Shown: positions 57,539 through 58,820 of the stretch, one piece after another | Layout: every line of letters starts with the position of its first letter | Numbering within the stretch: position 1 is the stretch's first letter | Assembly (NCBI GenBank): GCA_013821605.1 | Contig: JACDGP010000004.1 | Location: forward strand, 1 to 64,000 | Origin: Herpetosiphonaceae bacterium | GTDB taxonomy: Bacteria > Chloroflexota > Chloroflexia > Chloroflexales > Kallotenuaceae | Length of the DNA: 64,000 bases | Direction: 5' to 3' | Translations under genes and position numbers: made by a program | Notes under the pieces: model-generated | Databases searched by the model: none | Told to the model about the DNA's origin: nothing | Seen by the model: the letters and a program-made list of their open reading frames with translations, nothing else

Positions 57539-58114
57539 TCACTCGGGCTTAGTCTGCCGTGTTAGCGAGCGTATGGTTCGGCCCTGCCCAGAGTCTTCGA
57601 TCAGCGTAGCAAGCCGCTTGAGCTTGGTTTCTTCTTTTTTCGCGCTGATGACCCACCAGATGGCAGTCCGGCGATACCAGGGAGGCTGGGCTTGAAAGAA
57701 ATCCCAGGCTCCTTGGTTAGCACGAAATTGTTGCTCATACTCCACACTCAACTCAGCGCTTGTTTGTTCATAGGCGTAGATGGCGGACTTTTCCGGGGTG
57801 CGTTCCGCAAATGCTTTGAGACCGGCAGGCTGCATTCGTCCCAGACTGGAGAGTTCCTCGACACGTTGGATGTTAACAGCACTCCATATGCTCCGTCGTT
57901 TTCGTGGCGTGAAGCGAATGGTGTAACTTACGTTATCAATGCCTTTGCGTATGCCATCAATCCAGCCAAAGCACAGGGCTTCGTCTACCGCTTCGGGCCA
58001 GGTGATGCTGGGCTTGCCAGAGCCTTTTTTATAAAATCCGACCCACAACTCCTCGCTTGTGGCATGCTGCACTTCAAACCATCTTCGGAAGTCAGCGGGG
58101 GTTGCGAAGAACAT
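57539..58114 (-). CDS. YdeI/OmpD-associated family protein
   Basis: The 191-residue protein matches the YdeI family: FRRWFEVQHATSEELWVGFYKKGSG, WPEAVDEALCFGWIDGI and IRFTPRKRRSIWSAVNIQRV, with a C-terminal helical YdeI tail. The function is unknown; some members affect resistance to polymyxin or bacteriocins. An ATG 17 codons upstream overlaps the preceding gene's stop; the ATG used here has AAGGA at eleven bases. Confidence 0.84.
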   Translation of the reverse strand: MFFATPADFRRWFEVQHATSEELWVGFYKKGSGKPSITWPEAVDEALCFGWIDGIRKGIDNVSYTIRFTPRKRRSIWSAVNIQRVEELSSLGRMQPAGLKAFAERTPEKSAIYAYEQTSAELSVEYEQQFRANQGAWDFFQAQPPWYRRTAIWWVISAKKEETKLKRLATLIEDSGQGRTIRSLTRQTKPE

Positions 58115-58149
58115 AGAATTTGTCGATCCTTGGATCTTATCGGTCAAGA

Positions 58150-58692
58150 TTATACCTTTTTCCACAACTGCTGCGATGGCACACGGAGAGCGCGGTTGAA
58201 CTTACTCGAAGAATTTTCCCAGGCAATGATCATCGTTAACTCGATCAGGGCATCGTCATCATAGACATCGCGTAGGCGTGCAAATAAGGCGTCACTGACA
58301 TCGCGGCCCGTGATGGTCATACAATCGGCATACTCGAGACTTAGACGTTCCACCTCGGTATAGAGCGGGCTGCTGGCGTACTGGGGGAGAGCCACGAGCT
58401 TCTCATCTGATACCCCTAAGGCACTGCCAACGGCAGCATTAATGTCCTGTCAAAACTCACAGCCATTCAAGGCTGCTACCCGCCGGTTGATCAATGCTTG
58501 TAACGCGCTATCGATCAAGCCGGACGAGTCAATGCCGGTCCACATCGTGCGGACACCGCGAAAGATCGTGGGGCAGCGGGCATAAAGCAGGTGGTTGAGG
58601 AGCGGTGCGCCCCACTGCTTGACCTGGGCCTGAAATACTGCGTGGATAGGGCCAGCAACGTGATCGGGGTCTACTCCGTCAATACGGGCCAT
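58150..58692 (-). CDS. Carboxymuconolactone decarboxylase/AhpD-like protein, candidate selenoprotein (in-frame TGA)
   Basis: Two adjacent frames in the same phase are interrupted by one TGA (58452-58450). Read through, they give a 180-residue carboxymuconolactone decarboxylase-family protein: MARIDGVDPDHV, LINRRVAALNGCEF, then TGA at codon 81, then QDINAAVG, and DDDALIELTMIIAWENSSSKFN to the end. In relatives the codon after GCEF is the second Cys of the redox CxxC, the peroxidatic Cys in AhpD. So TGA stands exactly where selenocysteine would. A hairpin with a GTT loop follows 18 bases later. AAGGAG lies nine bases before the ATG. If selenocysteine is not used, this is a gene broken by one nonsense change. 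Confidence 0.7.
58422..58438 (-). promoter_or_regulatory. Candidate bacterial SECIS hairpin
   Basis: In mRNA sense, TGCTGCC pairs with GGCAGTG around the loop GTT (58431-58429). Five pairs are Watson-Crick and two are G-U. The loop begins 19 bases after the TGA, within the 16-37-base spacing known for bacterial SECIS elements, and its first base is G, as the known consensus requires. The stem is short, so chance folding is possible. Confidence 0.45.
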
Positions 58693-58820
58693 GGCGTGTA
58701 GGCTCCTTACTATAAAAGTTATTGCTTGATGCCGCAAGTGTAGCATAGCAATCCTGTCCTTGAAAGCGGTTACACTTGTAGGGCAGCGTTTATGACTGAC
58801 ACGACAAAAAGGAGTTAGAA

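Follow-up and report, generated by a model that had tools for sequence, protein, structure and literature searches.

The gene and its family

The window, a stretch of 64,000 nt from a Herpetosiphonaceae draft genome, carries on its minus strand a gene of 180 codons at 58150..58692, which starts with an ATG at 58692 and ends with a TAA at 58152-58150. A Shine–Dalgarno-like AAGGAG (58703..58708, minus strand) lies 10 nt upstream of the ATG. The initial annotation had described a single in-frame TGA at the second Cys of a CxxC motif, and the gene indeed contains exactly one, codon 81 (58450..58452, minus strand), the presumed selenocysteine (Sec) codon. The motif reads G-C-E-F-TGA, with the TGT codon of Cys78 (58459..58461, minus strand) three codons ahead of the TGA, and alignment placed the TGA at the second Cys of the CxxC in CMD/AhpD-like proteins. 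Cys78, presumably the resolving residue of the CxxU pair, was invariant in alignments A1 and A3 and occurred in 70/70 sequences in the residue comparison described below. Next on the same strand comes an ORF of the OmdA/YdeI family (57539-58165), the listed start of which overlaps the stop of the selenoprotein gene. Co-transcription of the two is possible; the pairing was not conserved at other loci.

With residue 81 filled in, the translated protein matched the CMD family PF02627 at 33.6 bits, above the gathering cut-off of 23, and it was the sole PF02627 match in its own genome at E ≤ 0.001. The match to the NCBIfam model NF053654.1 covered the full length (1–179 of 179) and scored 334.5 bits against a curated equivalog cut-off of 310. 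This model, GroundWater_YciW, already carries the name "YciW-related (seleno)protein" in NCBIfam release 20.0 (June 2026), and we found no difference between it and the gene in the window. The ahpD core domain model TIGR00778 gave 20.5 bits, below its cut-off of 27.8, so that by this model the protein falls outside AhpD proper.

We assign the gene to NCBIfam family NF053654 (COG2128, YciW-like) as a CMD/AhpD-fold selenoprotein. The family is not new: NF053654.1 models exactly this group, and AhpD-like CxxU selenoproteins were reported in 2005. The gene adds one member to a selenoprotein family that is on record. The 2005 report described AhpD-like and CMD-domain CxxU selenoproteins from Sargasso Sea data (PMC1088965), and such proteins appear again in later reviews (PMC9312934, PMC13188914). 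Compared by description, these published AhpD-like (COG2128 YciW) and CMD (PF02627) entries resemble the present gene in superfamily, in the CxxU motif, in the TGA that stands for the second Cys and in the hairpin behind the UGA. Cys homologues were widespread for the Sargasso AhpD-like family (PMC1088965), whereas none were found among the orthologues compared here (≥49% identity). A search of the open literature returned no paper in which NF053654 is named or this group of proteins is described.

Conservation of the TGA and of the hairpin behind it

A search of 158 genomes of the class yielded 13 matches at 52–74% identity, 12 of them full length and one partial. Each had exactly one TGA, and in the 12 full-length orthologues the TGA fell in a single alignment column. 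A scan of the larger collection gave 74 loci, of which 73 cover codon 81; this codon was TGA in 73/73 and a Cys codon in 0/73, across about ten phyla. Carriers were found in Acidobacteriota, Chloroflexota, Thermomicrobiota, Actinomycetota, Pseudomonadota, Planctomycetota, Gemmatimonadota, Rokubacteria, Eremiobacterota, Myxococcota and SAR324, and include the cultured Ktedonobacter racemifer, Dictyobacter and Ktedonosporobacter. The scan used the peptides AWEN[AS]SSK and FC[AQL]D[IL]NAAV; the second is Cys-based and favours Cys orthologues rather than hiding them, while an orthologue with neither peptide would escape. The unbiased searches of the 158 class genomes and of 400 Chloroflexota genomes agreed with the peptide scan. 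In the 400 genomes, every NF053654 match above 110 bits contained a TGA, and matches free of a stop began at 109.7 bits. The close homologues have kept the in-frame UGA at the position of the catalytic Cys, and on these alignments the orthologue group looks Sec-only.

A few loci were irregular. In AVDCRST_MAG18 (L035/L120), the match starts at residue 75, Arg (CGC) replaces Cys78 and the N-terminal part lies on another contig. The loci of Dictyobacter vulcani (L109) and L124 appear to have a frameshift or an insertion. These oddities may reflect decay or assembly error.

The short hairpin that the initial annotation had noticed 12 nt after the TGA was present at 58423..58437 (minus strand), with a 5-bp stem, GCUGC/GCAGU, and a 5-nt apical loop, CGUUG, that begins 17 nt after the UGA and has G at its second position, followed by U. 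As quoted in PMC13188914, the bacterial SECIS (bSECIS) model has an upper stem of 4–16 bp, an apical loop of 3–9 nt, a G in the first two loop positions and 16–37 nt between UGA and loop. The hairpin agrees with these rules for stem, loop, G and spacing, as well as with the pattern N1-G-U-N-N2. Its folding energy was ordinary for its composition (z = −0.42) and was not used as evidence. An Rfam search of 58100-58760 returned chance-level matches only.

The significance of the hairpin rests instead on comparison between species. RNAalifold recovered exactly this helix from an alignment of 40 sequences, in which 98.5% of stem cells were paired. The third stem pair showed two compensatory changes, from U-A to C-G in L027 and from U-A to G-C in L123; covariation was otherwise sparse because the stem hardly varies. 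Codon 86, the first Ala codon of the hairpin, was GCT in 71 of 73 genes, compared with 10.9% of the Ala codons in the same genes; as the sequences are related, we attach no probability to this excess. Wobble entropy at codons 86, 87 and 88 was 0.22, 0.87 and 0.99 bits, the lowest among 14 conserved fourfold-degenerate sites, the others ranging from 1.42 to 1.92 bits. This pattern argues for selection on the hairpin at the RNA level. Across phyla the SECIS stem has hardly changed in nucleotide sequence, and its compensatory variants are informative.

Decoding of the UGA

The host genome (G000; 5.88 Mb, 99.6% complete) encodes the whole route for Sec insertion that the initial annotation had proposed to look for. 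A profile search detected selA at 544 bits and selB at 320 bits; the 630-aa SelB has SelB-wing_2 and wing_3 domains, the C-terminal winged helices. The tRNA-Sec scored 59.9 bits against an Rfam cut-off of 47 and has the anticodon tca, and selD scored 376.6 bits. The other matches to the tRNA-Sec model, all below threshold, were ordinary tRNAs with other anticodons; this check covered the loci returned by the model. The sel genes sit on other contigs of the draft genome. Their contigs matched the window in tetranucleotide usage (r = 0.89–0.92, compared with 0.46–0.74 for stretches of other organisms), which shows the bin to be coherent, and contamination of the bin as the source of the sel genes was rejected on this basis.

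The selD gene (L019:1501-2430; G000:C92:30441-31370) is itself a selenoprotein gene, with a TGA at its CAGU catalytic site followed by a hairpin. Together with the gene in the window, this brings the Sec-type UGA genes of the host genome to two or more.

SelA was found in 24/24 carrier genomes tested, from several phyla; in one of them the gene is cut short by the end of its contig. One carrier MAG (G148, locus L024), which is 64% complete, had no selA above the cut-off, probably because of missing sequence.

Taken at the level of sequence, these results make it very nearly certain that the TGA at codon 81 is decoded as Sec and that the gene encodes a selenoprotein, as the initial annotation had supposed for a CxxU protein; the conserved TGA, the conserved hairpin and the complete Sec machinery all support this. 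None of the outcomes that the initial annotation had named as refuting its reading came about. This confidence applies to the selenoprotein claim and not to the substrate. The simplest rival, a nonsense mutation or sequencing error that turned a Cys codon (TGY) into TGA and left a pseudogene, has in its favour that TGA is one base away from TGC and TGT and that distant homologues from the same class (L039, L044–L050) do have Cys aligned to the TGA column. The 13 class orthologues, however, all have the TGA, with the downstream part of the protein conserved up to its last residues, and the same TGA recurs in all 73 loci. Mutation and sequencing error are excluded for practical purposes, because the TGA is fixed across phyla in dozens of independent assemblies. 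Some bacteria do recode UGA to other residues, and the codon might be read as Cys or another residue by a tRNA other than tRNA-Sec. This is very improbable here: the tRNA found with anticodon tca is tRNA-Sec, the further matches to that model have other anticodons, SelA, SelD and a SelB with SECIS-binding wings are present, SelA co-occurs with the gene in 24/24 carriers tested, and the hairpin fits the bSECIS model in stem, loop, G and spacing.

If the codon is read as Sec, SelA and SelD would produce Sec-tRNA(UCA), and SelB would deliver Sec at codon 81 while bound to the hairpin that follows the UGA. The product would be an all-helical protein of 180 residues in which one helix begins with the Cys78-x-x-Sec81 pair. 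As an enzyme it would use Cys78 and Sec81 for thiol/selenol redox catalysis, in which the selenol of Sec81 may act as the nucleophile on a peroxide, or on some other substrate that is oxidised or electrophilic, Cys78 may resolve it as an Se–S bridge, and a thiol reductant may re-reduce the bridge. Peroxide reduction is our default guess for the activity. The Sec insertion itself, the substrate and the reductant are inferred.

Fold, possible chemistry and inheritance

The AlphaFold2 model of the protein was all-helical, with a mean pLDDT of 96.8. Its nearest folds in the PDB were Bmp8 and AhpD-like, peroxidase-related proteins. The closest solved fold was that of the debrominase Bmp8 (6ohi/6ohj; TM 0.83–0.84, E 6e-7) at about 20% identity, and the matches included the Bmp8 C82A mutant. 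Bmp8, which is defined by the reductive debromination of bromopyrrole, is a Cys enzyme. It also matched by sequence profile (E 2e-23), where the peroxidase-related PA0269 and Atu0492 outscored it. The AhpD of Mycobacterium tuberculosis matched the predicted model weakly (TM about 0.5).

The protein shares with M. tuberculosis AhpD and PA0269 an all-helical fold and a CxxC or CxxU at the start of a helix (PMC3141380). In AhpD, a proton relay runs through Glu118-Cys130-His132-Cys133-His137 (PMC3141380). In 70/70 sequences, only the two Cys positions of the relay had counterparts, Cys130 corresponding to Cys78 and Cys133 to Sec81. The equivalents of the other relay residues, identified by spacing, were replaced throughout: Glu118 by Ala or Ser (rarely Pro, Gly or Thr), His132 (Tyr50 in PA0269) by Phe, and His137 by Asn. 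The initial annotation had equated the TGA with the attacking Cys of AhpD; this holds for position and for the CxxU match to Cys133, but not for the surrounding residues. Invariant in the 70 sequences were the equivalents of Asn69, Arg71, Asn76 and Asn85 and the motif WEN[AS]SSKFN. With Glu118, His132 and His137 absent from the alignment, the protein cannot be taken for an established AhpD, and AhpD-type chemistry should not be assumed. A selenol, being deprotonated at neutral pH, may dispense with the relay.

Several functions could be imagined for the selenoprotein. It might work as a true AhpD, that is, as an adaptor or reductase for the peroxiredoxin AhpC by way of the AhpD proton relay, as would fit the PF02627 match, the CxxU at the Cys130/Cys133 positions and the predicted AhpD-like fold. 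We consider this unlikely, given that the remaining relay residues are replaced in all 70 sequences, that TIGR00778 falls below its cut-off and that no neighbour is conserved across loci. Instead of being a peroxidase, the protein might be a reductive dehalogenase resembling Bmp8 or might reduce other electrophiles, which would fit the best PDB fold match and the sequence-profile match; this seems less likely still, since PA0269 and Atu0492 score better by profile and 20% identity is too low for transferring a substrate. A tentative reading, less likely than not, is that within the AhpD superfamily the group constitutes a Sec-obligate clade: Cys would never stand in for Sec in any of about ten phyla, the relay would have been lost, a selenol of low pKa would take over its task and the chemistry would be distinct from that of AhpD. 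The group makes a useful test case, as Sec appears irreplaceable in it, although proteins of this fold mostly manage with Cys, and as its SECIS stem varies so little.

In the 158-genome class search, the host's nearest relatives, from its own family and order, yielded no close orthologue, and vertical inheritance in the host lineage lacks support for this reason. Among 59 loci, no conserved gene neighbourhood was found: no cluster of neighbours was common to more than five loci, and those beside the gene in the window turned up at one other locus at most. The gene tree was poorly resolved and had the phyla intermixed, with 19 label changes where 9 would have been the fewest possible, which is suggestive of transfer but not proof of it. 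The patchy distribution, the intermixing of phyla in a weakly resolved tree and the unconserved neighbours together suggest that the gene has spread horizontally as a single gene. Gene callers that treat TGA as a stop will split the gene in every carrier, and a redox protein of wide distribution is then easily overlooked.

More distant CMD/AhpD-like groups from the same phylum, at 30–39% identity (L036–L043 and many matches of the NF053654 search), also had a single TGA in this alignment column, and in many cases a GCTGCC hairpin as well. One distant homologue (L037:1501-2019) had its first in-frame TGA at codon 80 and a second at codon 106, which may represent a second Sec, a frame problem or decay. 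Several Sec clades of the CMD/AhpD superfamily coexist in Chloroflexota.
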